A stretch of 64,000 bases of DNA from Phycisphaerae bacterium (lineage in GTDB: Bacteria > Planctomycetota > Phycisphaerae > Sedimentisphaerales > Anaerobacaceae), in NCBI GenBank assembly GCA_028714255.1, contig JAQTMR010000008.1, positions 1-64,000 of the forward strand, given 5' to 3'. This document shows, piece after piece, positions 2,633 through 54,254 of this stretch (the stretch's first letter is position 1; each line of letters starts with the position of its first letter). The notes beneath the pieces are model-generated. The model saw nothing but the letters and a program-made list of their open reading frames with translations. It did not search any database and was not told the DNA's origin. A program made the translations under genes and the position numbers.

Positions 2633-2685
2633 TATGTTTTTTATCTTAGCTGGTGTGGGATTTCTTCGTCTTTACCTGAGGCTCA

Positions 2686-3582
2686 TTCATATCTACCCAT
2701 TTACGGCCGACTTTGTGATTCTGTTTTTGGTCGGTGTTTCCATCTCCTGTGGAGCCACCAGTATTGGCTTGGGTCTTCACGTACGAAATTCTCAATTGCT
2801 TTGGTATATTCTGCCGTAATCCATTCGATGGGGTCATCTTTCTCGGCCCATTCTTCGGGCAATATTATACGCTCGACTCCTATTTCGAAGAAGAAACGAT
2901 TTCCGATTCGCCTGCTGTATCCTATTACTATGGGTATATTGTTGGTGGCAGCAATTAATCCTATACTTTTATAGGTGCTGGCTTTTCGGCCGAAAAAGTC
3001 AACGAAGATTCCCTTTTTGCCGGCGTCCTGGTCGGCGATAAAACATAAAGTCGCACCGCTCGAAGCGGTTTTACTCATCAATTCAGCGGCGCCTTTCTTG
3101 TCGATTATTTTTTGCCCCATCCGCCGACGAACTCCATACAGATAATTATTAATGAACTTGTTGTCTAACGGCCGGGCGATACTGTAAATATTGAAACCGA
3201 ACAGCCCCATAAGGTAGCCTACGATTTCGAAGTTAGCGTAATGTGCCCCAACTATCAGCAGTCCCCGGCCTTCCTGCATCAGCCATTTGGTCCTTTCGAC
3301 GTTTTTATATCGCGAGTAATTCCGCCAGTTATCTCTTTTCACTAATCGAGGCGTGAACAGCACGTCAACCGCCAGCATCACGATATGCTCGAAGCTTCGC
3401 CTGCCCGTATCCCATATCCATTGTTCGTTTTTATCCGGGAAGCTGGCGCGAAGATTGTCCAGTGCCCGGTCGCGGCCGCGGTGGTAGTATTTCCACAATA
3501 ATCGGCCGAGAAAACAAGCGGTACGCAGATTGGTCTCGACATCGAATAGATAAAGAAACAGTACAAAGATGCGCAATGCAAG
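2686..3582. repeat. 897-bp direct repeat, copy 2
   Basis: Second copy of the repeat described at 545-1441. The two copies enclose the zinc-ribbon membrane protein gene, so homologous recombination would delete or amplify a 2141-bp unit. Confidence 0.9.
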
Positions 3583-3648
3583 ATAGACAAGCAAATCCAT
3601 AAGAAGATTGTGTTTCTTTTTTTTCTTTCGTCGGGCAGAATCAGCCAT
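2701..3648 (-). CDS. LpxL/HtrB-type lipid A acyltransferase (full-length copy)
   Basis: Lipid A biosynthesis acyltransferase family, inner membrane, acting late in the pathway on Kdo2-lipid IVA-type acceptors; exact acyl specificity cannot be read from sequence. With the start at 3648 it has 315 residues, near the usual 290-320. The N-terminus is strongly basic (RRKKKKKH), followed by a TM-like segment and the HX4E catalytic motif (HYANFE). An internal ATG at 3600 (MDLLVYLALRIF) is an alternative start; an upstream one at 3684 reads through a perfect hairpin and is unlikely. The 12-bp stem hairpin immediately before the chosen start may limit ribosome access or serve as an operator. Confidence 0.85.
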   Translation of the reverse strand: MADSARRKKKKKHNLLMDLLVYLALRIFVLFLYLFDVETNLRTACFLGRLLWKYYHRGRDRALDNLRASFPDKNEQWIWDTGRRSFEHIVMLAVDVLFTPRLVKRDNWRNYSRYKNVERTKWLMQEGRGLLIVGAHYANFEIVGYLMGLFGFNIYSIARPLDNKFINNYLYGVRRRMGQKIIDKKGAAELMSKTASSGATLCFIADQDAGKKGIFVDFFGRKASTYKSIGLIAATNNIPIVIGYSRRIGNRFFFEIGVERIILPEEWAEKDDPIEWITAEYTKAIENFVREDPSQYWWLHRRWKHRPKTESQSRP

Positions 3649-13020: not shown

Positions 13021-13713
13021 TCACATTTTTTGCAGAATGACGTGGCCGTTGCCTATACATTGGTTATTCCACAACCCGCTGTCGTCGCACGTAGCCTGGT
13101 TTTCTATGGTTAAATTGTAAGGAAAACATTCCCCGTTTGGGTAGCCCCATGCGGAATGGTTATAAAACAGGTGAATATAGCCGCAGTTGTTGTACGGGTC
13201 ACTCCGTCCCTTGTAGCCGAGTTCGACTTGTATATCTACTATCCCCTCGTATTGGTCAATTGCAAGTGCGTGGCAACCCAACACGTTCAAATCACAGATA
13301 TCCTTGACGCCGCCTTCGCAACCATCCAGGTTGTAAAATTCGAACGACCCAAAATTGGCAAATTTAATGAAACTGAACCAGCAGGGCAATATCACACCCA
13401 ATTCACGGTGGAACGACCCTCCGCCTGGGCCTTCCTGTTGTATGATTCGCCCCATGTCCAATTTGCAACTAATATCCCATCCTATGCCCTGGTCAATAAA
13501 TTTCATTCGCGTATCACTGACGCCTACGCCGTCCACCGGGCAGCACTGCCCGAGATTTGGGCAATGAAGAACCCCTGCCATATCAAAAGCGATTTGGTTC
13601 GGCGTCGTGCCTTCGGGGCATACCTCACATATACCTCCACGTAACTGAAGCATGCCGGTCGCTTCGTCGAACATAACCCTACCGTCACTCGTATTCATAT
13701 CTTGCAGTCCCAT
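13021..13713 (-). CDS. Cys-rich tail-tip or fibre-region protein
   Basis: 230 residues with about 14 cysteines distributed through a beta-rich, aromatic sequence (for example CPEGTTPNQIAFD, CPNLGQCCPVDGVGVSD). No signal peptide. Located at the distal end of the tail module where receptor-binding and fibre proteins are usual, so a structural role is inferred only from position. Directly behind two paralogous proteins of similar C-terminal style (Cys-x-Cys ends). Confidence 0.6.
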   Translation of the reverse strand: MGLQDMNTSDGRVMFDEATGMLQLRGGICEVCPEGTTPNQIAFDMAGVLHCPNLGQCCPVDGVGVSDTRMKFIDQGIGWDISCKLDMGRIIQQEGPGGGSFHRELGVILPCWFSFIKFANFGSFEFYNLDGCEGGVKDICDLNVLGCHALAIDQYEGIVDIQVELGYKGRSDPYNNCGYIHLFYNHSAWGYPNGECFPYNLTIENQATCDDSGLWNNQCIGNGHVILQKM

Positions 13714-29016: not shown

Positions 29017-31140
29017 TTACGCCGTGTTCTTCTGCACCCCGCGATGGTCCATGGACTTGCAGCCGACGTCGATGAATATGCGGTAAACAAGGCCCATCAC
29101 ATTCGGGCCGGGGTTGAACTGCTCGAGTGTAGGCTCCTCCTTGCCGTTGAGAAACGCCACGATGATGGTGTCGATAATGCTCGGATTGCCTACCAGGAAC
29201 CAGGTTGTTTCTGAATAATTGGTATAGCTGGGATTGCTCAACCGCACCTCGGATACGACCTCGATGCCCGTATCACTCAGCGCGTTGTAAGCCGGTTTCG
29301 TCAAATCGGTTGTTCCTGTAACAACAATCGTCGCGGCCTTCAGCAGCTCCGCTGCCGTGAACCTTAGCTCATGCGGCACAAGTAGTACCCTCGGCTCCAC
29401 GTGGATAGGCTGACCGTCTTTATCGACCTGCTTGGAAAACGCCGTAATTGCCGTTTTCAGTGTTCCCTGTGCCAGCGCAGCGGACGTATTGAGGTTCAAG
29501 TGGTCCGCGTGGAACAACGCTTTCCCATCCGTCATTGCTCCGTTCGCCATAAGATGCGCATAAACAAGGTCACCTGCTTTGCGTTTGGCCCTGGCACCCA
29601 TTTGTTGCGGAATCGTGGTTAGAGCACGAAGGTCGTCATTGATAATGTTCTGTCGCGTAACGCGGAAGTTTTTGGCAAACGTAGCAACGCTGTATTTCTC
29701 AGATTCCTCGGTTGCGCTTCCGTATTTGACCTCGCCGCCATTGCCGACCTGCTCAAGCTCTCCGGTATCTGTTAACCTGGCGCCGGTGACCTCTTTAAAG
29801 TCCGTAACGGACCCTGTCTGGCACCATTTCCGCCACGTCTCAGGCACGCTGTTATATCCTTTGAGCATGGCCTTCTTGGCGATATTGCCGAGTATAGTTG
29901 GCAGTTCCATCGTCGAGAACGCGGCCCTCATGATTTCTTCGCGTCCAACGGGTATTGCCTGACCTGCCAGCACAATGGCCTGCCTGCATACATCTAAAAG
30001 GGTCATATCACGGAACCTTTTCGCGGCCTCGAATCGTTGCTCGCCTTTGACCTTGTCACTGCGAACAATATCTTCGCTTCCGGCCCTAATCAGCATACCG
30101 TCAACAAGCGTTTCCCTATTGACCTCGCTTGTGTTCTGAATGTTCGGCGATACGTTGGCTCTGCTGCTTCTAACCGCCTTCAACACCTCGGCCCAAGCGT
30201 CAGCTACCGTTAGTCCGCCGCTGATGCACCGCTCGATAACTTCCGCCGGCACATCATCGCCGCCGAGTTCACGAATGCTGTTCATCCTTGCTCGCTCAGC
30301 CGCTATCCCCTCCTGGGTCGCTCTCTGGGCTATTGCCGCCAAGTCATCCGTCGGTTGTTTTGCCGGCTCGGTCCGCTGCACGGCTTTGTCATCCGGTTTT
30401 TTTGCGGGCTGTTCGGCCGATTCGCTGCGCTTCAGCTCAGCTTTGTATTCAGCCTCCAGTTCCGCCCGCTTAGTTTCGTCAAGGGTATCCGGATTTTCGC
30501 CCCTTGCGATTAGCCATTCCTTAAATTTCGGGTCCATTGTTCTGTCTCCTTTTGTAGTAATAATATGTTGGTTTCTGCTTCTAAATTTTGAATCCTCATC
30601 GGCTCCGATATCACAAACACTTGTTTCACCAAGTATCCATAAAGTCGAAATCCTTAAGTCCCTTGTCTCTGAGGCCTGGAACTCCCTGCCTTCGACAACT
30701 GTTTTTTCACCTTTTAGAATCATTACGTGACTTACGACTTTGTAACCAGCCGATTTATCTGTGAGATGTCCCTCTTCTGTAAGTGTCCATGGATGCTCGG
30801 CCACTATTGACTTGCTGAAGTAGTCCCGCCCAATTAGCTTGTCAGCCTCGACACGGAAATTGCGTGTGCTGCCAAGCATTTTCTGCACCGTCGAACGGTC
30901 GTGGGTATCTATCAACGGAACCTGTCCGTTTTTCGGGGCCCTGAACCCGCTCATTAGCAGGATTTCCTCAATTATTTCGCCTCGGCCCCAGTCGTAAACA
31001 AGAACCGGGTTCTCTGTGGCAATCACCGATTCTATCGAGCGAGTCTTCTTATCGAGCGTTTCCGTCCGGGCATGGTAAGCCCGCGTCGTAAGCTCGTTCC
31101 TCTCAATCAGTCCGTCAATTTTCGACCGTTTCGTCTTCAT
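29017..31140 (-). CDS. Fused prohead protease - major capsid protein
   Basis: 707 residues. Residues 1-~190 are an HK97/S78-type prohead protease with likely catalytic His80 (LIDTHDRS) and Ser130 (DKSAGYKV). Residues ~202-330 are a charged, helical scaffold-like delta region, and ~330-707 the HK97-fold capsid (YGSATEESEKYSVATFAKNF, then LLVPHELRFTAAELL and a VGNPSIIDTIIV strand). Met202 is preceded by a strong in-frame SD, so capsid protein alone may also be produced. Protease-capsid fusions are known in some phages and Mu-like elements; cleavage between the parts is expected. Confidence 0.85.
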   Translation of the reverse strand: MKTKRSKIDGLIERNELTTRAYHARTETLDKKTRSIESVIATENPVLVYDWGRGEIIEEILLMSGFRAPKNGQVPLIDTHDRSTVQKMLGSTRNFRVEADKLIGRDYFSKSIVAEHPWTLTEEGHLTDKSAGYKVVSHVMILKGEKTVVEGREFQASETRDLRISTLWILGETSVCDIGADEDSKFRSRNQHIITTKGDRTMDPKFKEWLIARGENPDTLDETKRAELEAEYKAELKRSESAEQPAKKPDDKAVQRTEPAKQPTDDLAAIAQRATQEGIAAERARMNSIRELGGDDVPAEVIERCISGGLTVADAWAEVLKAVRSSRANVSPNIQNTSEVNRETLVDGMLIRAGSEDIVRSDKVKGEQRFEAAKRFRDMTLLDVCRQAIVLAGQAIPVGREEIMRAAFSTMELPTILGNIAKKAMLKGYNSVPETWRKWCQTGSVTDFKEVTGARLTDTGELEQVGNGGEVKYGSATEESEKYSVATFAKNFRVTRQNIINDDLRALTTIPQQMGARAKRKAGDLVYAHLMANGAMTDGKALFHADHLNLNTSAALAQGTLKTAITAFSKQVDKDGQPIHVEPRVLLVPHELRFTAAELLKAATIVVTGTTDLTKPAYNALSDTGIEVVSEVRLSNPSYTNYSETTWFLVGNPSIIDTIIVAFLNGKEEPTLEQFNPGPNVMGLVYRIFIDVGCKSMDHRGVQKNTA
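30535..30552 (-). promoter_or_regulatory. Internal ribosome-binding site and start for capsid protein
   Basis: Within the fused gene the minus strand reads AAAGGAG, eight bases, then ATG at 30537 (sequence MDPKFKEWLIARG). The spacing is ideal. It would give a 506-residue scaffold-capsid protein without the protease. This decides a possible second product; it could also be a relic of two once-separate genes. Confidence 0.6.
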
Positions 31141-32605
31141 CTTCCATTTCCTTATTATTTTCCGATTTTTTTTCGGCCTGCCACGGTATCCCCAGCTCTT
31201 CGCACAAATCCTTCTCTTTCTTTATCTGCCTCAGTTCCCGCTCCCAGTCCTTGCCCTGCTGTGCATATTCCCCCTTAAGATTGGTCGTCAGGCTCCGTCG
31301 CCGCGTATTCTGAGCATCCGCTTCTTTCTTCGGGTCCACGTGTTCGCTGCCCGGCCAGTTCCATTCCGGCCTGGCGGTGTTGACATTGCCTTTGAAGTAT
31401 TTGAAGTACCCTGGCATAAGAATCCCTTCTCTAAGCCAGGCGTAAAATACGCGGTTACATTCGTGTGCCTCCAGCCAGCTTCGGATTGTTCTTATAAATC
31501 TGTAATAAATCTGCCAGTCCAGCCGGCCCGATGCGTAGTTGTATTTCGCGGAGTTAGCCGCCGCCACGTTGAACGGCATACAAACGCAGCGTGCGATTTC
31601 GTTAATGACTTCATTTTTGAACATTTCGTAGGTCGCGGCCGGATGTTCCGGCTTTACTTGCGACATATTATGTCCCCTCGGCAGCGTTAAAAAAGAATTG
31701 CGGGGCAACTCAACTTCGTCCAACGCCTCTACCTCGTCCGGCTCTGTCCCCGCCTCTGTTTGTATTGTTCCCGATACATTCGCTGCCGTTTCGGCTGACT
31801 GGACTGTCGCAAGTGTGAATCTGCGGAGTTGCGCGAATAAAGGCAGTGAAGGCGTTACCCACGGCATCCCACGCGATTGGCCCGGGCGTTTTATCTTGTA
31901 CAGATGAATCATCTGTGAAGCCGGAACCTTGTCGTAATCACCGAACCCGCCGCCGAAATTAGTCGCCGAACCGGGATGCTGTTTGAATATGTAATAAAAT
32001 AAGGGCCTGCCGTCCTCGTCATATTCGATGCCGTCCCTTACCTTTTCATCGTTTACTATTCCGGCCAGGCCGTACGGTGATGCTAACCTGTCAGGCTCAA
32101 TCACCCTAAGTCGCAGCAGCGGCTCAGGCCTAACCCTTGTCCAGTTTTTTTGCCGCCTGATATTTACAAAAGCTGTAAGCCCTTCCCCCGATTCGCATTG
32201 CTGCCTGCCGCCTGTCAGGGTCAGTATTTCCCCGAAATTTAATTTGCCCTCGATATCGCAATCCTGTGACCACTGAAAAAATTTCTCCTCAATCTCGCTG
32301 TCGGCGTCGGAGTTTCCAGTATCCATCTGCAAGTCCGGCCCTGTCCCCACAAGGTCGTTTGCCAGCGTTTCGATTATCCCTTCAGCGTAGGAGTTGTTTT
32401 TGACTTCATACCGTGCGCGGTTGCGTGTCGTCGGCAGGTCCTGCCTAATCCAGAAATCGGCGTCGCTGCCGTCGGCATAGCGCCAGTGGTTCTCGTTGTG
32501 CCGGCTCGTCGCGGCCGCGTCGTAAGAACGACCGGTTAGCTGCGTCGATCGCCCGGCTTTTACGGCGTCTGTTTGCGGTATTAATAATTCACCAAAAATA
32601 CTCAT
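31115..32605 (-). CDS. Portal protein, lambda family
   Basis: 496 residues. The N-terminal pattern NRARYEVKNNSYAEGIIETL followed by ANDLVGTGPDLQM is characteristic of lambda gpB-type portals, as are RVIEPDRLASPYG, MIHLYKIKRPGQSRGMPWVT and the C-terminal helix NVAAANSAKYNYASGRLDWQ. It forms the dodecameric DNA gate of the head. The C-terminal tail is acidic (EMEDEDETVEN). Overlaps the start of the protease-capsid gene by 26 bases, typical of coupled head genes. Confidence 0.92.
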   Translation of the reverse strand: MSIFGELLIPQTDAVKAGRSTQLTGRSYDAAATSRHNENHWRYADGSDADFWIRQDLPTTRNRARYEVKNNSYAEGIIETLANDLVGTGPDLQMDTGNSDADSEIEEKFFQWSQDCDIEGKLNFGEILTLTGGRQQCESGEGLTAFVNIRRQKNWTRVRPEPLLRLRVIEPDRLASPYGLAGIVNDEKVRDGIEYDEDGRPLFYYIFKQHPGSATNFGGGFGDYDKVPASQMIHLYKIKRPGQSRGMPWVTPSLPLFAQLRRFTLATVQSAETAANVSGTIQTEAGTEPDEVEALDEVELPRNSFLTLPRGHNMSQVKPEHPAATYEMFKNEVINEIARCVCMPFNVAAANSAKYNYASGRLDWQIYYRFIRTIRSWLEAHECNRVFYAWLREGILMPGYFKYFKGNVNTARPEWNWPGSEHVDPKKEADAQNTRRRSLTTNLKGEYAQQGKDWERELRQIKKEKDLCEELGIPWQAEKKSENNKEMEDEDETVEN

Positions 32606-35143: not shown

Positions 35144-35551
35144 TTATTTTTTTCTCTGTGTCCTCTGTGCTCTTTTTTGCTTTTGGCAGTTTTCGCACGT
35201 CTGGCTATAAAGCCGCACCCCATCCTTGTATCTTGTGGCTTCGGCCTGACCACAGTATTGGCATTTTGTCGGTGGTTGGGCTATGCCTTCAGTGTCATCT
35301 GGTATGTCGCAGCAGTGTTCGCAACTGCCAAGCGGATAGTTATGGCCTTCAACATACGGCTCACTCCAGTTGTTTCCAAGGTCGCTATAAGCACCGCATC
35401 GCCCGCATCGCAACGCTTGGCCGTCGCGAATCTGCGCGACGCAATCCACACAAAGAAGGATTGCCGCATCGAACTTGTTTTTAAACTTCATCAGATTGCC
35501 GATGATAACTTCTTTTTCGCACCACGCACAATTTTTTGTTTCCGAGTCCAT
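35144..35551 (-). CDS. Zinc-ribbon protein, paralogue of the IS-associated gene at 52908
   Basis: 135 residues with five CxxC-type pairs: CAWCEKE, CVDC, CGRCGAYSD, CEHCCDIPDD and CQYCGQAEA plus CENC. About 85% identical by eye to the 130-residue protein at 52908-53300, including the GNNWSEPYVEGH...YPLGSCEHCC core, and the similarity extends ~20 bp into the upstream SD region. Probably binds two or more zinc ions. Role unknown; see the finding on exchange between phage and transposon. Confidence 0.7.
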   Translation of the reverse strand: MDSETKNCAWCEKEVIIGNLMKFKNKFDAAILLCVDCVAQIRDGQALRCGRCGAYSDLGNNWSEPYVEGHNYPLGSCEHCCDIPDDTEGIAQPPTKCQYCGQAEATRYKDGVRLYSQTCENCQKQKRAQRTQRKK

Positions 35552-35686
35552 TTTTTAACCCTTCTAAAAATTTGTTACTAAATTGTTTTCAATCGGCTTT
35601 TCGCTCAAAGTTAAGAACTTTAGCCGAATTTAACCTCCTGGCTCCGGAGGTTCAAAGGTTACTATTGACTTATCAATTCTATGTAA

Positions 35687-35715: not shown

Positions 35716-35829
35716 GTCTTTTTCCTTGAAATTTTGGTAACTATCCCCTCATGACAAGTACAAAAGTGTTTTTTTGAGCCTATCCTATTCTGCTGGTTAA
35801 TTGATTAGTGCGTTTATATAATAGGAGTT

Positions 35830-38187
35830 ATGATGTATACTAAACCATTAGAAAGAGATACGGAATACTTAATAAATACACAACTCCAAAATTTATCTTG
35901 GGTTTTAGAACCAAAGGATAAAAAGAGAAACGTATATTTTCAACGTCCCAAAACCGAACTCCAACGTAAAGCCCTAAAAGGTAACTTTCCTGATTATGTG
36001 CTTTATCCTACTGATTCTGATAGCCCCCTAATCGTAATTGAGGCAAAGCGACCACAAAAGAGTATAGAAAAAGCAATGGAGCAGGGTATTAAATATGCAA
36101 GTGCTTTAAAAGCTCCGATAGTATTTGCCAGCAATGGAATTTTCACAAAAACATTTCATCTAAAAAATCACAATAACCTTATCCTAAATGGAACTGAAGT
36201 AGAAGAGTTCATCAAGGAAGTAACTGCCCTAAAATTTCTAAATACAAATGAGTATACATCACTTGATAAATATGTAATAAAATCTCGCAAGGAACTCATA
36301 GATATATTTGATAAAGCCAACAATGTCCTAAGAGAAGAAGAGGGACTACAAGCGGGAGTAGAACGGTTTAGTGAATTTGCCAATATATTATTTTTGAAAT
36401 TAATAAGTGAACGAGAAGATTTAAATGAGGAAGAGGGGAAAGATTTTATTATTGACCGTGAATACCGCTGGTCATTTTTCAGAGACAAAAAAGGCAAAGA
36501 GTTGTTGAGTTACATTAACGATACGGTATTGCCTAAATTTAGGGAAGAATTTGACGATAAAATTATATTTTCAAAACTCAAAATTTCAACACCCAAAACC
36601 CTCGAAACACTTGTTGACAAAATAGACCCCTTGTATCTTACCGATACGAAGAGCGATATAAAAGGCGATGCGTTTGAGTATTTTCTTAAATCTTATAGTT
36701 CTGGAAACAACAATGATTTAGGCCAATATTTCACTCCACGTCACATTGTTAAAACAATGGTGAAATTGCTTTCGCCTACATTGGGCGAAAGAATTTATGA
36801 CCCCTTCTGCGGGACGGGCGGAATGCTTACGGAATGTTTCAAGCATATCAATAATACAATGCCACATAATCGGTCATCATTAGATACGTTAAAAACCAGG
36901 ACATTATTCGGCAGAGAAATTACGGATATAGTTCGCATTGCAAAAATGAATATGATTTTATGGGGAGACGGCCATAATAATATTGACAAAATCAACAGCT
37001 TAAAAAATCCCAAAAAACACGAATACGATGTAGTAATAACAAATATCCCGTTTGCTCAGACAACAAATTATGGAGAACTATACGATATTCCTTCCAACAA
37101 TGGGGACAGTGTTTGTATACAGCATTGTTTAATGGCCTTAGATGACAAAAACCCAAACAGCCGCGCTGCTATCATAGTACCAGAAGGTTTTTTGTTTGAC
37201 AAAGTGTATAAGCGAGAAAGAGAGTATTTGGTAAATAGATATAGTTTGCAAACGGTAATATCTTTGCCGTCTGGCGTTTTTCTGCCTTATACGCCACAGA
37301 AAGCCAGTATTTTATATGTAAAACTCAAACAGGCTAATCAAAAAACTATAAAGTATTTTACTGTTCACAGCGATGGTTATACGCTAAATAACTATCGGAA
37401 AAGATTATCTGGCATAAATGACTTAGACAGATTACTTGACGGCATCGAATTTGATTTGCTCTCAATAAAAGATATTGCCAAAAACAATTACGAACTGATA
37501 AAAGGCATATATACCTCTGCCGGTTTTACTTTTAAAAATACAAAAATGGCATTCCTGAAAGATGTGACTGTTGATATTAAAAGCGGCCAGTCTGCTCCAC
37601 AGGATTTACAGTTGTTTGAAAATGGAACACATAATTTTGTTAGGGTTTCCGATTTGGCGAAAGAACATATTGTTTATCATTTAGTTGAGTCCAGAGATAA
37701 GCTAAATGACAAAGGCATTAAAGGACTCACTATTTTCCCAAAAGGAACTATCTTGTTTCCTAAAAGCGGAAAAACTGTAATTAAAAATCACAGGGCAATG
37801 CTGGGAGTAGATTCTTATGTGGTAAGTCATTTGGAGGGCATAATACCGAATACTCAAAAAATAGACCCTTATTATTTGTTTGGCTGTCTTTTAAATATTG
37901 ACGCAAAAGAACTGTTGTTGAATGAGGGGTATCCATCTATAAGAAAAGGTGTTTTTGAAAATATAATTATTCCTTTGCCCTCAAAAGAAAAACAAAAAAC
38001 AATCGCTAAATCTATCCGAGGATTAGTAAAAATGGAAAAACGTAAAAACGAATTGCTTGTCAAGGTACAGCAAAGCTATGAACAAGCACAAAGCCTAAAA
38101 GGATTATCTACTAATAAATCAGTCTTTGACGCTATGATTAAACGGGCATCGCAGCCGATTCAGAAAGAGAGAAAAACAAAGGATTAA
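35830..38187 (+). CDS. Single-chain restriction-modification-specificity enzyme (type I-derived, type IIG/IIB-like)
   Basis: 785 residues joining three type I modules. (1) N-terminal HSDR_N-like nuclease: Asp55 (NFPDYVLYP) and Glu71-x-Lys73 (VIEAKRP), a PD-(D/E)XK site. (2) HsdM-like N6-adenine methylase about 170-560: LGQYFTPRHIV, SAM motif I DPFCGTGGM (324-332) and catalytic motif IV written Asn405-Ile-Pro-Phe instead of NPPF. (3) C-terminal HsdS-like target-recognition domain about 570-785 (KGTILFPKSGKTVI, then SIRKGVFENIIIPLPSKEKQ and a coiled coil). There is no helicase/translocase. Start has AGGAG then two ATG; a TATAAT box is just upstream. AT-rich relative to flanks and inverted to the late operon. 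Confidence 0.88.
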   Translation: MMYTKPLERDTEYLINTQLQNLSWVLEPKDKKRNVYFQRPKTELQRKALKGNFPDYVLYPTDSDSPLIVIEAKRPQKSIEKAMEQGIKYASALKAPIVFASNGIFTKTFHLKNHNNLILNGTEVEEFIKEVTALKFLNTNEYTSLDKYVIKSRKELIDIFDKANNVLREEEGLQAGVERFSEFANILFLKLISEREDLNEEEGKDFIIDREYRWSFFRDKKGKELLSYINDTVLPKFREEFDDKIIFSKLKISTPKTLETLVDKIDPLYLTDTKSDIKGDAFEYFLKSYSSGNNNDLGQYFTPRHIVKTMVKLLSPTLGERIYDPFCGTGGMLTECFKHINNTMPHNRSSLDTLKTRTLFGREITDIVRIAKMNMILWGDGHNNIDKINSLKNPKKHEYDVVITNIPFAQTTNYGELYDIPSNNGDSVCIQHCLMALDDKNPNSRAAIIVPEGFLFDKVYKREREYLVNRYSLQTVISLPSGVFLPYTPQKASILYVKLKQANQKTIKYFTVHSDGYTLNNYRKRLSGINDLDRLLDGIEFDLLSIKDIAKNNYELIKGIYTSAGFTFKNTKMAFLKDVTVDIKSGQSAPQDLQLFENGTHNFVRVSDLAKEHIVYHLVESRDKLNDKGIKGLTIFPKGTILFPKSGKTVIKNHRAMLGVDSYVVSHLEGIIPNTQKIDPYYLFGCLLNIDAKELLLNEGYPSIRKGVFENIIIPLPSKEKQKTIAKSIRGLVKMEKRKNELLVKVQQSYEQAQSLKGLSTNKSVFDAMIKRASQPIQKERKTKD

Positions 38188-38188
38188 G

Positions 38189-38317
38189 CTGTTTTCTTCT
38201 GTTGTATCTGTAAGCAAATTCATTCACATAGGTTTGTAGATATTTAGGGCTTACGGCGTGATAAGTGCCGTGAATAGACCTTTTAAGCTGGCTCCAAAAT
38301 CCCTCTAAAATCAACAG
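38189..38317 (-). pseudogene. IS1595/ISXO2-type transposase remnant
   Basis: Only the C-terminal ~40 residues remain, in one minus-strand frame: LEGFWSQLKRSIHGTYHAVS continuing PKYLQTYVNEFAYRYNRRK. This is the conserved end of the DDE domain (compare the intact gene at 53304: GIDNFWSLLKRSIKGTY). There is no start and no upstream domain. It abuts the stop codon of the restriction-modification gene, suggesting that gene arrived by or beside a transposition event. It is a different family member, not a copy of the 53 kb element. Confidence 0.75.
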
Positions 38318-38550: not shown

Positions 38551-39096
38551 TCAAACAACTTTATCAATAAGTCCATATTTCTTTGCTTCCTTACCTGTCA
38601 TCCACACATCCGTTGCCGGCAGCAGAATCTCCTTGATTTGCCGTTTGTTCAATTTTGTGTGTTTCAGATAATGCCTAATCATCCTCTCCTGCACCATATT
38701 CTGCTCTTTTCGGTCGGCTATCAGCTCGTGATATTTTCCCGAAGTTTCCCATGAATACTGGTGACTTAATAGTCTCGTATTTTTCGTAATTATCCTGTGA
38801 CCCTTTGTCCCTGAACAGAGAATAAGCAGCCCCATGGAGGCGCAGGTGCCAAGTCCTGTGATATAGACCGGCATTTTGGAAAACTCGATAAAATCAGTCA
38901 CCATAAAACCTGCGGGCATAGTTCCGCCGGGTGAATTGAGAATCATCTGAATAGCCTTAAAGTTCGGCTTGACCATTGTATTGATATATACGAGCTCTTC
39001 GACTATCGTTTTCATCGAATCGTCGCTTATCGCACCACATATATTAACCATCCCTTGTTCCCGTAGTTCTATTGATGTTGCGATCGTACTTTTCAT
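38551..39096 (-). CDS. ClpP-like serine protease (S14), probable head maturation protease
   Basis: 181 residues covering the ClpP fold: NSPGGTMPAGF (54-64), nucleophile Ser87 in CASMGLL, base His112 in LLSHQYSW, and an Asp near 163 in PATDVWMTGKEAKKYG followed by GLIDKVV. The full triad is conserved. In lambda-like phages a ClpP-fold (S49/S14) enzyme next to terminase acts as prohead protease; here a separate S78-type protease is fused to the capsid, so roles may be split, or this one may work with host ClpX-like partners. Confidence 0.85.
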   Translation of the reverse strand: MKSTIATSIELREQGMVNICGAISDDSMKTIVEELVYINTMVKPNFKAIQMILNSPGGTMPAGFMVTDFIEFSKMPVYITGLGTCASMGLLILCSGTKGHRIITKNTRLLSHQYSWETSGKYHELIADRKEQNMVQERMIRHYLKHTKLNKRQIKEILLPATDVWMTGKEAKKYGLIDKVV

Positions 39097-39106
39097 TTTG
39101 CACCTT

Positions 39107-41032
39107 TCATCTCAATCTTTTTTGTCTTTGTAGTTCCGACAACACTATTTTTTTCTTTAGTCCCGCCGCTGCGGCTCTTCTTTCCACTTTTACCTTCGGG
39201 TCCCTGCCGTAAAGAATATGTACTCTTTTGTAATGGGCCGCCGCCGCCGCAAGCACCGCTGTATCGAGATGGTGTGTTTTGGCGCCTTTTGACACCGGCA
39301 CCCATCTCCACGTTTCTTGCCCGTATTTGTCTCTGATTTTTATTTTGTGCTCGTTGCAGAAGTCTTTGAAGTACCTGTCGGGAATTTCTATATAAAACTC
39401 TGTCGAGCCGGGCGAGCCTGCAGGCCTCGACACCCACGTTGTCACCCTGTCTTTGAAAAATCCGGTATCTATCATAAACAGCTGCATACCCCTGTATTTT
39501 TTGGCCCGCACATCCGATATCCTTTCCATGGCGCTGGCGACGATCGGCGCCCGCTGTTCGCCCGATGCTCCCTTCGTCGGGAAAACAAGTCCGGGATATT
39601 TCATGCAGAAATCAAATACCCTGTCCTCCATAAACCCAGAATCGACGAACATGCAGACCACCGGCAGCCAGGGCTTCTCTTCGTTCAGTGTTCCATCTTC
39701 CCACGGGAACGGACTAAGCAGCACCTCGTCTTCGAGCTGGTCGAAGTTCGTCGCCGACCCGCTCGACACGACGCAGTTTCGCATCCCGTATCCGAATCCT
39801 CTCACCTCATAATCTATTCGTATCATGTGCCGTTCGTCTTCGTGATAATCCGCCCCGGCAACCAGTATCAGCACCCAGTCCGGCACCGTTCCTCTGCTGG
39901 ATTGGCCTTTATGCTCGTCCATTTCCGACCGGCTGACTTTACGGCCGCTCTCCTCGTGTATCTGTGACAGTACCTGATTCCTGAATTCTCTTAATACCTC
40001 CGGTGCTATTTCCTCTTTGTTTTGCGCCTCGAAAAATTCCGCCAGCATCCTGTGCCACAAAATCCACGGGCTGATTAGGCCGTCTATCCAGAACCCCGTG
40101 TGTCTCTTGCCTCGTCGAGGTTTACCGATGATATTGCCTTTGGCATCTATTATTTGCCCCCTTGGCACCCATTTACCGGCTGCCACCATATCCGTCTTGT
40201 GATGCTGCTCGATATGCCCTGCGCAGACGTTGCATTCGTAATAAACACATTCGTCTTTTATGATTATTTCCGGGTCGCGAAGGCCCGGCGGGTCCACCTT
40301 AAGATTGCCGAATGACGGGTCGAAGTACCGCCCACATAATGGGCATGGAATCCAGTACCGCTGCATATTTGAATCATTCAGCGAAATCCATATAAATCCA
40401 TCCGCTGTTGTAAGCGTACAGAGATATATAACCTTGAAATCTGGGAACGTGGTCCCTCTTCGGTAGGCCAGCTTGGCTGGGCTGCCTTCTCTGCCGACGT
40501 ATTTAGGCCATTTATCTGTCTCATCGCACGCAAGCACACCGATTGCTCTGCTCGCCATCCCCATCGCCGACTGACTACCTGTGAAATAAAGAGGCATTGT
40601 ATCAAACTGGAATACTCTGCCGATTTTTATATCGCGGCAGTGTTTGGTAAAATGTCTGCTTAGGGCTGGACTGTCCCTGAAGGTTGGCAGCAGCCTTTCA
40701 GTTGATATATTCTCGCAATCTTCATCACGTCCGGTGACATAAAGGGTAGGTGCAGGATTGACATCCACCGTATATCCAATCATATTAAAGACCGCTTCCG
40801 TCTTCCCGCATTGTGCCGGTCCGGTAATTGTGATTTCCTCCACCTCCGGGTCTGTAAATGCGTCCATTATGTCGCGAAGATACGGCGCCCTATCCGTCCG
40901 CCATTGCCCGTGTTCGGCGGATGTGCTGGGTAGCATACGGTTCGTGTCTGCCCATTGCGACACGGTCGTCGGCGCCGGCGTATCCCATGCTTGGCGTTCC
41001 TCTTTGCTCCATATTGTTTTAGTTGCAGCCAT
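39107..41032 (-). CDS. Terminase large subunit, GpA family
   Basis: 641 residues from ATG 41032 (MAATKTIWSKEERQAW). Walker A ITGPAQCGKTEA, Walker B with GVLACDETDKWP, and the GpA-type opening SQWADTNRMLPSTSAEHGQW identify the packaging ATPase-nuclease of lambda-like phages. The nuclease half includes LVAGADYHEDERHMIRIDYE and CMFVDSGF acidic sites. A TTG start 11 codons upstream would overlap TerS but lacks an SD. It pumps DNA into proheads with TerS and the portal. Confidence 0.92.
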   Translation of the reverse strand: MAATKTIWSKEERQAWDTPAPTTVSQWADTNRMLPSTSAEHGQWRTDRAPYLRDIMDAFTDPEVEEITITGPAQCGKTEAVFNMIGYTVDVNPAPTLYVTGRDEDCENISTERLLPTFRDSPALSRHFTKHCRDIKIGRVFQFDTMPLYFTGSQSAMGMASRAIGVLACDETDKWPKYVGREGSPAKLAYRRGTTFPDFKVIYLCTLTTADGFIWISLNDSNMQRYWIPCPLCGRYFDPSFGNLKVDPPGLRDPEIIIKDECVYYECNVCAGHIEQHHKTDMVAAGKWVPRGQIIDAKGNIIGKPRRGKRHTGFWIDGLISPWILWHRMLAEFFEAQNKEEIAPEVLREFRNQVLSQIHEESGRKVSRSEMDEHKGQSSRGTVPDWVLILVAGADYHEDERHMIRIDYEVRGFGYGMRNCVVSSGSATNFDQLEDEVLLSPFPWEDGTLNEEKPWLPVVCMFVDSGFMEDRVFDFCMKYPGLVFPTKGASGEQRAPIVASAMERISDVRAKKYRGMQLFMIDTGFFKDRVTTWVSRPAGSPGSTEFYIEIPDRYFKDFCNEHKIKIRDKYGQETWRWVPVSKGAKTHHLDTAVLAAAAAHYKRVHILYGRDPKVKVERRAAAAGLKKKIVLSELQRQKRLR

Positions 41033-41033
41033 T

Positions 41034-41624
41034 TTAAGGAGTTTTGTAATTTGCGAATAAATCAATTATAAAAATAACTTCTTTTTTAAGAATTTCCTGC
41101 ATCCTCGCCGGCGTCTGTCCCCTTAATAGTGGCACCGCTTTTCTCGGCAGATTCAGCAGCATCTTTTTAACGACCTGTATCCGTTCGACGTCTCTCTTGT
41201 CGTAGTCCGCCTTTTTAACCCATTCTTTTTTTAATATTTCCAGTTGTATTCTTTCCCGTTCGTCGCGGGTTGCTTTTATATTTGCCTCCGACTCCTCTTT
41301 TTTCAGCTTTGTTTTCGTCGATTTCTTGCCTTCGTGCTCGGCAAACTGTTTGAGTTGGCTCCTGATATAGACCTTTTTGCCGTCCTTACCGGCCGTCAGC
41401 ATCCCCTCTTTTTCCCATCGGCGGATAGTCCGAGCGTTTCGCCCTACGAACAGTGCCGCCGCTTCCTGCGTTTCGATAATCTCGGATTCCGCAATCTCGG
41501 CCCGGCTGTTTTTAGCCTTCGATTTTCTACTGTTTTTTTTTGGTTCTTCGCTCATCTTTTCGAATTCATCCAGTTCAGCCAGCTCCGGCCTCGACAGGGG
41601 CTGGTTATTCCTTACGCGCGTCAA
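41034..41624 (-). CDS. Terminase small subunit-like (Nu1-type), start uncertain
   Basis: 196 residues from TTG 41624. Contains a MerR/excisionase-type winged helix (TQEAAALFVGRNARTIRRWE, then KDGKKVYIRSQL) followed by a helical oligomerisation region ending in IIDLFANYKTP, as in lambda Nu1. Coding-like sequence continues upstream in the same frame (DPIEVAQKQRHLYLLTRVRN) without an ATG, while an ATG at 41706 in another frame leads into it over a run of five A (41683-41687). The true start or a frameshift is therefore open. Precedes TerL with overlapping ends. Confidence 0.72.
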   Translation of the reverse strand: MTRVRNNQPLSRPELAELDEFEKMSEEPKKNSRKSKAKNSRAEIAESEIIETQEAAALFVGRNARTIRRWEKEGMLTAGKDGKKVYIRSQLKQFAEHEGKKSTKTKLKKEESEANIKATRDERERIQLEILKKEWVKKADYDKRDVERIQVVKKMLLNLPRKAVPLLRGQTPARMQEILKKEVIFIIDLFANYKTP

Positions 41625-52860: not shown

Positions 52861-52907
52861 ATATATAGCGATACACAACTTATTAACTTTTTTAGAAAGG
52901 GTAAAAG

Positions 52908-53300
52908 ATGGCCGCTGAAACAAAAAAATGTGCGTGGTGCGAAGAAGTTATCGTTGGCAATCTGACGGAGTTTGAAGACAAGTTCGGCGAAGCAATCCTT
53001 CTTTGCGTGGATTGCGTGTCGCAGATAGTTGATGGCCAAGCGTTGCGATGCGGGCGATGCGGTGCTTATAGCGACTTTGGAAACAACTGGAGCGAGCCAT
53101 ATGTTGAAGGTCATAGTTACCCGCTTGGCAGTTGCGAACACTGCTGCGATATACCAGATGACACCGAAGGTATAGCCCAACCGCCGGAAAAATGCCAATA
53201 CTGTGGTCAGGCCGAAGCCACAACATACAAGGATGGGGTGCGGCTTTATAGCCAGACGTGCGAAAACTGCCAAGAACAAAAAAGAGTTAATCGGAGATAA
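52908..53300 (+). CDS. Zinc-ribbon passenger protein, paralogue of 35144-35551
   Basis: 130 residues: CAWCEEV, CVDC, CGRCGAYSD, CEHCCDIPDD, CQYCGQAEA and CENC, the same order as in the phage-operon copy. The core GNNWSEPYVEGH and SYPLGSCEHCC are shared. SD agaaagg upstream. Four bases before the transposase start, so the two are expressed together. Possibly assists target recognition or regulation of transposition. Confidence 0.65.
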   Translation: MAAETKKCAWCEEVIVGNLTEFEDKFGEAILLCVDCVSQIVDGQALRCGRCGAYSDFGNNWSEPYVEGHSYPLGSCEHCCDIPDDTEGIAQPPEKCQYCGQAEATTYKDGVRLYSQTCENCQEQKRVNRR

Positions 53301-53303
53301 AAA

Positions 53304-54254
53304 ATGAATCTGCCAAAAACCTTGCTCGATGCCGTCCGATATTTTTCCGATTTGGAGGTTTGTGAAAATTATATGCGTGAGATTCGCTGGGCTGGAGCAC
53401 CTCCCGCCTGTCCGCATTGCGGCGGTATGAGAATCGGCGAAGTCAAAACCCGTAATCTTTTGCGATGTAAAGACTGCCGGAAGCAGTTCAGCTCCAAAGT
53501 GGGGACTATATTTGAAGACAGCCCGCTTGGACTTGTTAAATGGTTTGTCGCTGTTTGGGCAATCGCTAACTGCAAAAATGGAATCAGTAGCCACGAGCTT
53601 GGCCGTGCAATCGGCGTTACACAACGCACGGCTTGGTTTATGCTGCATAGAATCCGCAAAGCGATGGAGTGCTCTGATTCTAACAGATTTGACGGCATTA
53701 CAGAGGCTGATACTACCTATGTCGGCGGACAAGCAAGTAATATGCACGAGCACAAACGGATTAAAACGATACAGGGACGTGGTGCGGTCGGCAAACAGCC
53801 GGTTCACGGAATCCTGCAACGTGGTGAAATTAGTAAAGTCAATGCCAGAGTAATTGACGAGGAAAACTCCGAAACAACGCTCGGCCATATCAAAAGAATC
53901 GTCAAGCGAGGTAGTCAAGTTTTTACGGATGAAGCCAGAGTTTATAGTAGTTTGATTAACAGCCACGCCCACAGAGCTATCGACCATTCCGTAACGTATG
54001 TTCGGGACAATGTTCACACAAACGGAATCGACAACTTTTGGTCGCTGTTGAAGCGAAGCATTAAAGGCACTTATGTTAGTGTTGCAACTTATCACCTGTT
54101 CCGATATGTAGCCGAACAGGTTTTCAGATTCAACAATCGAGACCTTACCGATGCGCAGCGTTTCAGCTTTTTGCTTTCGCATATCTTCAACCGTCGATTG
54201 TCTTATCGCTTGCTGGCCGGAATTGATAACGCTGGCTTTATGGGGAAGATATAA
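53304..54254 (+). CDS. IS1595-family (ISXO2-type) transposase
   Basis: 316 residues. N-terminal zinc ribbon CPHCGGMRIGEVKTRN...CKDCRKQFSSK (about 36-70), an HTH (ISSHELGRAIGVTQRTAWFM) and a DDE domain: EADTTYVGG, DEARVYSS, then NGIDNFWSLLKRSIKGTYVS. Uninterrupted and with good motifs, so probably active. Belongs to the ISXO2/IS1016-related group. Confidence 0.9.
   Translation: MNLPKTLLDAVRYFSDLEVCENYMREIRWAGAPPACPHCGGMRIGEVKTRNLLRCKDCRKQFSSKVGTIFEDSPLGLVKWFVAVWAIANCKNGISSHELGRAIGVTQRTAWFMLHRIRKAMECSDSNRFDGITEADTTYVGGQASNMHEHKRIKTIQGRGAVGKQPVHGILQRGEISKVNARVIDEENSETTLGHIKRIVKRGSQVFTDEARVYSSLINSHAHRAIDHSVTYVRDNVHTNGIDNFWSLLKRSIKGTYVSVATYHLFRYVAEQVFRFNNRDLTDAQRFSFLLSHIFNRRLSYRLLAGIDNAGFMGKI

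Follow-up and report, generated by a model that had tools for sequence, protein, structure and literature searches.

A predicted type IIG-like, single-chain restriction-modification gene as probable passenger of a decayed IS1595-family transposon in a prophage

How does a gene that appears to encode a whole restriction-modification (R-M) system come to lie, inverted, among the head genes of a prophage, and what might it do there? In the 64,000-nucleotide stretch of DNA that we analysed (hereafter, the window), inspection of ORFs and translations revealed one intact reading frame at 35830–38187 on the plus strand, encoding a chain of 785 amino acids. The gene is present in single copy, and no other match to it exists in the genome. 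It runs opposite to the head and packaging operon of the prophage, whose genes were assigned with PHROGs, all on the minus strand, to the small (41034–41624) and large (39107–41065) terminase subunits, a ClpP-type head protease (38551–39096), the portal (31115–32605) and a head/protease protein (29017–31140). The orientation of these neighbours, together with a GC content that is about 50% across the head genes but only 34–35% in the R-M gene, bears out the original prediction of a horizontally acquired gene inverted among phage late genes. At the right edge of the insertion lies a small phage gene (38332–38547, minus strand; 48% identity to positions 13249–13503 of L131). In a related prophage (G313), its homologue directly follows the terminase and there is no R-M gene; the distance from the small gene to the portal is about 0.8 kb there, as against 5.7 kb in the window.

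An RBS-like AGGAG (35823–35827) is, as judged by eye, a better match for the second ATG (35833) than for the first, and the protein may therefore be 784 residues long. A scan for sigma-70 sites around the gene gave no excess over shuffled sequence. Elsewhere in the window, we observed a 927-bp direct duplication (539–1462 and 2680–3605; 98% identical) and, upstream of the terminase genes, two sets of near-identical direct repeats (95%; 42681–42881/44062–44261 and 43252–43335/44234–44318).

The protein combines three modules, each matched by Pfam above the curated cut-off: HSDR_N (residues 48–112, E = 1.6e-7), N6_Mtase (275–527, E = 6e-43) and a single Methylase_S match (572–742, E = 9e-12). 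Pfam detected no helicase or translocase domain in the 785 residues, and none of the ORFs listed next to the gene resembles an R subunit. The predicted fusion of nuclease, methylase and specificity functions without a translocase was thus confirmed, with the catalytic residues at the predicted positions. The HsdR-type PD-(D/E)XK nuclease domain (residues 1–150; 35830–36279, plus strand) carries D55, E71-x-K73 and Q85xxxY89, and is supported by Pfam, profile and fold comparisons. It is followed by a gamma-class N6-adenine methyltransferase domain (residues ~151–537; 36280–37440, plus strand) with motif I (DPFCGTGGM) at residues 324–332 and motif IV (NIPF) at 405–408, which matches, besides its Pfam family, the type I M subunits 5ybb, 3ufb and 2okc in the PDB by both profile and fold. 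The C-terminal part (37510–38187, plus strand) comprises one target-recognition domain (TRD; residues ~572–742), which is supported by fold as well as by a profile match to the HsdS protein 1yf2, and a long helix (residues 719–757) seen in a full-chain structure model of moderate confidence (pLDDT 76.9, pTM 0.58; two rows were omitted from the alignment used for prediction). Judging by this model, the helix is likely a dimerisation element.

We examined the N-terminal module separately. Searched against the PDB, a profile built on residues 1–155 gave a single credible match, to the HsdR fragment 3h1t (E = 9e-11), and an AlphaFold model of the nuclease domain alone (pLDDT 89.6) again retrieved 3h1t first in Foldseek (E = 2e-4, probability 1.00), with the type IIG enzyme BpuSI third as a weak match. 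The type IIB enzyme BsaXI (8w0p, 8w2p), likewise an R-M fusion with a gamma-class methylase, aligned with the full-length family profile only across the methylase part (profile positions 146–586, E = 1.7e-31; also by fold), whereas its N-terminal nuclease did not align in the profile search. Since 3h1t ranks best by profile as well as fold and BsaXI aligns in the methylase alone, we regard the module as HsdR-like. The original prediction that the N-terminal module is a nuclease, and an HsdR one, therefore stood, but its contrast with the usual type IIG module was overstated: a review places type IIG cleavage domains in one PD-(D/E)XK family together with the R subunits of type I systems (PMC3874165), rendering the distinction a matter of degree.

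By sequence, the organisation is that of a type IIG-like enzyme, with nuclease, methylase and one TRD in the order found in HaeIV, and with an HsdR-like nuclease. HaeIV is a type IIG enzyme whose organisation is listed as '2R~gammaM~[GAY]' and whose homodimer acts on an interrupted palindrome (PMC3874165). Like HaeIV, the window enzyme has an N-terminal PD-(D/E)XK nuclease, a gamma-class methylase with motifs I and IV and no translocase on the same chain, and its one Methylase_S match plus the C-terminal helix fits enzymes with a single TRD; by analogy, it would be expected to work as a homodimer on an interrupted palindrome. Compared with HaeIV-type IIG enzymes by the described organisation of HaeIV, it differs in that its nuclease is recognisably HsdR-type, its methylase has its nearest relatives among type I M subunits, its family's motif IV reads N[M/I/Y/P]P[F/Y], and its genes are carried by transposons and phages. 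BsaXI differs by having a separate S subunit. Each of the three modules has its homologue in a type I system, in HsdR, HsdM and HsdS, respectively (3h1t, 3ufb and 7eew of Vibrio vulnificus YJ016); however, the separate motor R subunit and the two-TRD S subunit of type I systems are absent from the window enzyme, which has one TRD and no helicase/translocase on its single chain.

The same fusion recurs well beyond this prophage. By tblastn, the full architecture was found on a phage contig from the human gut (43% identity), on a Geobacillus plasmid and in many Acinetobacter phages of the Vieuvirus type, including B1251 (YP_007010582.1; 41% identity over residues 7–575), and profile-derived scans of IMG/VR added about 17 more distinct contigs with relatives. 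Early scans with poor peptide patterns from a single protein had retrieved only distant HsdM proteins from genome contigs and nothing from viral contigs. Within the same bacterial family, one other genome bears a copy at 49% identity, whose neighbours on the contig are chromosomal; this genome and the source genome are the only two of 248 genomes of the class with a full-length match, and the relatives were collected mainly from viral collections. In total, at least 20 relatives with the same domain order form one clade with 100/99 support, outside of which fall all four HsdM proteins of the same phylum that were included in the tree.

Across a 22-row alignment of the family, P54, D55, E71 and K73 are invariant, Y89 and methylase motif I are conserved, and HSDR_N was detected in 17 of 18 family members. 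Motif IV has the form N-x-P-[F/Y], in which N405 is invariant and P407 is lacking from one row only, while position 406 is occupied by M in 11, I in six, Y in three and P in two of the 22 relatives. It had been proposed that the isoleucine at this position could change the activity or the target base of the window enzyme; given the variability of the second motif residue, it is instead normal for the family and was rejected as a mark of either. The sole member without proline at position 407 (L040) reads NYAF, and its methylase is possibly inactive or altered. Two relatives (L028 and L034) have a longer C-terminal part, which, from its sequence, would hold a second TRD.

Directly downstream of the R-M genes of several relatives we observed proteins of 240–310 residues, most of them with an RNxxxH motif (L113/L130 9141–10052, L034 10822–11751, L028 6804–7583, L004 109–837 and L012 3195–3914). 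Pfam HEPN matches to these proteins are sub-threshold only (best E about 0.01), making an HEPN RNase partner or back-up effector a possible reading. No homologue of this candidate partner gene was found in the window.

Where, then, did the R-M gene come from? The original prediction had missed that it is flanked by transposon remains. A 25-nt sequence (GGTAACTATCCCCTCATGACAAGTA; 35736–35760, plus strand), 70–94 bp upstream of the start codon, corresponds to the left terminal inverted repeat of an IS1595-family transposon, 21 of its 25 positions being identical to the left repeat of L135/L037 (best value for shuffled sequence, 17). Allowing up to three mismatches, this pattern, which was derived from the same site, has its only match in the window here (0 expected). 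On the other side of the gene, positions 38305–38147 (minus strand; EGFWSQLKRSIHGTYHAVSPKYLQTYVNEFAYRYNRRK...) encode EGFWSQLKRSIHGTYHAVSPKYLQTYVNEFAYRYN..., which matches the last 40–50 residues of all seven transposases described below. In tblastn searches with these seven, E-values ranged from 2e-15 to 4e-6 on a 4-kb segment, with 60% identity to the L033 protein, and the best E-value over the whole window was 4e-14. This stub is convergent with the R-M gene and overlaps its 3′ end, as does the intact transposase of L036. Another relative, L134, is in the same state, having a left repeat, the R-M gene and the last 41 transposase residues; neither copy retains the right repeat or the remainder of the transposase. 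Pattern and inverted-repeat scans of the window retrieved no right terminal repeat, without which an 8-bp target duplication is not recoverable there, and we infer the right end of the element from the stub. Judged by these sequence remains, edged as it is by the terminal repeat and the transposase stub, the R-M gene most probably came as the passenger of an IS1595-family transposon that has since decayed.

A second IS1595-family transposase, full-length, is encoded in the same prophage at 53304–54254 (plus strand; PF12762, E = 1.7e-36), opposite to the phage genes. It was considered as the missing half of the R-M element; no matching terminal repeats were found there, and it was treated as separate. 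A Cys-rich gene with zinc-ribbon-like CxxC motifs also occurs twice in the window (35170–35586 and 52875–53286; 88% DNA identity), one copy lying just outside the left repeat and the other ending a few bases before the second transposase.

Complete versions of such an element were found among the relatives. A listing of neighbours showed that, in seven viral loci, a gene of roughly 300 codons directly adjoins the R-M gene, and its product is an IS1595-family transposase (PF12762, DDE_Tnp_IS1595, E = 1e-28 to 1e-44; plus PF12760, Zn_ribbon_IS1595), intact in L032, L033, L036, L039, L042, L043 and L044. Across the 28 loci surveyed, transposase matches occur in nine (the above seven, the stub in L134, and L135), each of them no more than 750 bp from the R-M gene; the flanks searched showed no further match. 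In six cases (L033, L036, L039, L042, L043 and L135), inverted repeats of 25–34 nt bound precisely the pair of transposase and R-M gene, delimiting elements of 3.3–3.6 kb, three of which are flanked by perfect 8-bp direct repeats: ATTGACAA in L036, AAAAAGAT in L039 and TAAATTTA in L043. Target duplications of 8 bp, AT-rich, have been reported for an IS1595-family element (PMC12561309), and IS1595-family transposons with passenger genes are known as 'tIS', for example tISCpe8 and MTnSag1 (PMC5704250). The R-M elements resemble these in having an IS1595/ISXO2 transposase and one passenger, in their terminal inverted repeats and in their AT-rich target duplications of 8 bp; they differ in carrying a complete one-gene R-M system as that passenger, and the window copy is decayed.

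The transposase–R-M pairs occur in both orientations and on several branches of the tree, arguing that the association was formed or reshuffled on more than one occasion; by label counts, transposase orientation does not cluster on the tree beyond shuffling. About half of the relatives lack a recognisable IS1595 transposase near the R-M gene (among them L028, L029, L030, L034, L035, L038, L040, L041 and L110), and we therefore consider the transposon one carrier of the gene rather than its obligatory partner. On balance, we lean towards these elements being a recurrent, apparently undescribed class of ~3.4-kb IS1595 transposons whose sole cargo is a one-gene R-M system and which insert into the genomes of phages and prophages, with the transposase later lost and the gene fixed in phages, which it would, from the sequences, serve as a defence or addiction gene. 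Single-chain enzymes of the type IIG-like kind were known already, as were passenger-carrying IS1595 elements; what appears to be new is their combination. No description of a minimal R-M transposon repeatedly entering phages was found in the literature searched, which excluded Siguier et al. 2009, the defining paper on IS1595 passengers.

Based on the domains, the conserved catalytic residues, the family, the repeat and stub, and the complete transposon versions in relatives, we think it probable that the window harbours an intact type IIG-like one-gene R-M system, a passenger of an IS1595-family transposon, that defends the lysogen in the following way. The gene would have entered the head-gene cluster of the prophage with the transposon, whose transposase then decayed to a C-terminal stub. 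Two chains would pair via their C-terminal helices, and the homodimer would recognise a symmetric, gapped (bipartite) site, each methylase domain modifying an adenine in one half-site to give m6A on both strands. Wholly unmodified sites would be cut by the HsdR-like nuclease near the site, independently of ATP-driven translocation, such that host and prophage would be shielded by their own methylation and incoming unmodified phage or plasmid DNA would be cleaved. Loss of the gene may be punished, leaving the host perhaps addicted to the element, and the gene would thus benefit transposon, prophage and host alike.

A defence role is plausible from the sequence. In the Acinetobacter phages, including B1251, the homologue of the same architecture differs in its setting from the window copy: it adjoins the prophage repressor gene in the same direction, and no IS1595 remnant was detected beside that of B1251. 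Its placement suggests expression in the lysogen, which would fit defence there. The Acinetobacter prophage methylome literature that we searched assigns no methylation motif to this homologue.

A serious rival, or companion role, to defence remains addiction, whereby the gene would chiefly retain the transposon or prophage through the death of descendants that have lost the methylase, phage defence being secondary. R-M genes are said to be able to act as selfish elements, a view attributed to Kobayashi (2001), and in the present case a small transposon carries the gene as its only cargo, and the gene outlasts the decay of the transposase. The same anatomy suits defence equally well, however, and in a single chain nuclease and methylase would dilute at equal rate, weakening post-segregational killing; we consider addiction as the chief role a less likely reading, though one to be taken seriously. 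Phages also carry methylases to escape restriction by the next host, and the location of the gene in a phage genome would be in line with an enzyme whose nuclease is silent and which modifies the phage genome to this end. Invariance of P54, D55, E71 and K73 and conservation of Y89 would be unexpected for a silent nuclease, and the gene runs opposite to the late operon and was brought in by a transposon, leaving this role improbable. It is very unlikely that the protein is an enzymatically inactive type I relic, in which an HsdR stump, HsdM and half an HsdS were fused: each module is indeed nearest to type I subunits, but more than 20 divergent homologues (about 33–53% identity) on phages, plasmids and chromosomes retain both the fusion and the catalytic residues, arguing for a stable architecture and no local accident. 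Already disfavoured, and in our estimate barely credible, is an ordinary phage moron gained by illegitimate recombination, with repeat and stub as coincidental resemblances; a transposase is absent from half of the relatives, and the window lacks the right repeat and target duplication, but the 25-nt repeat is unique in the window and the 40–50-residue transposase match (E = 4e-14) is placed and oriented as in L036, L135 and L134.

The intact elements L036, L039 and L043 open transposition, establishment in naive cells, and the choice between defence and addiction to direct testing. In joining an HsdR-type nuclease to a one-TRD methylase, the family bridges type I and type IIG systems. A single gene with both activities suits transfer, because cutting never arrives without protection, and the minimal two-gene transposon, with a self-contained R-M system that needs no partner, offers a concrete route by which phages gain R-M genes.
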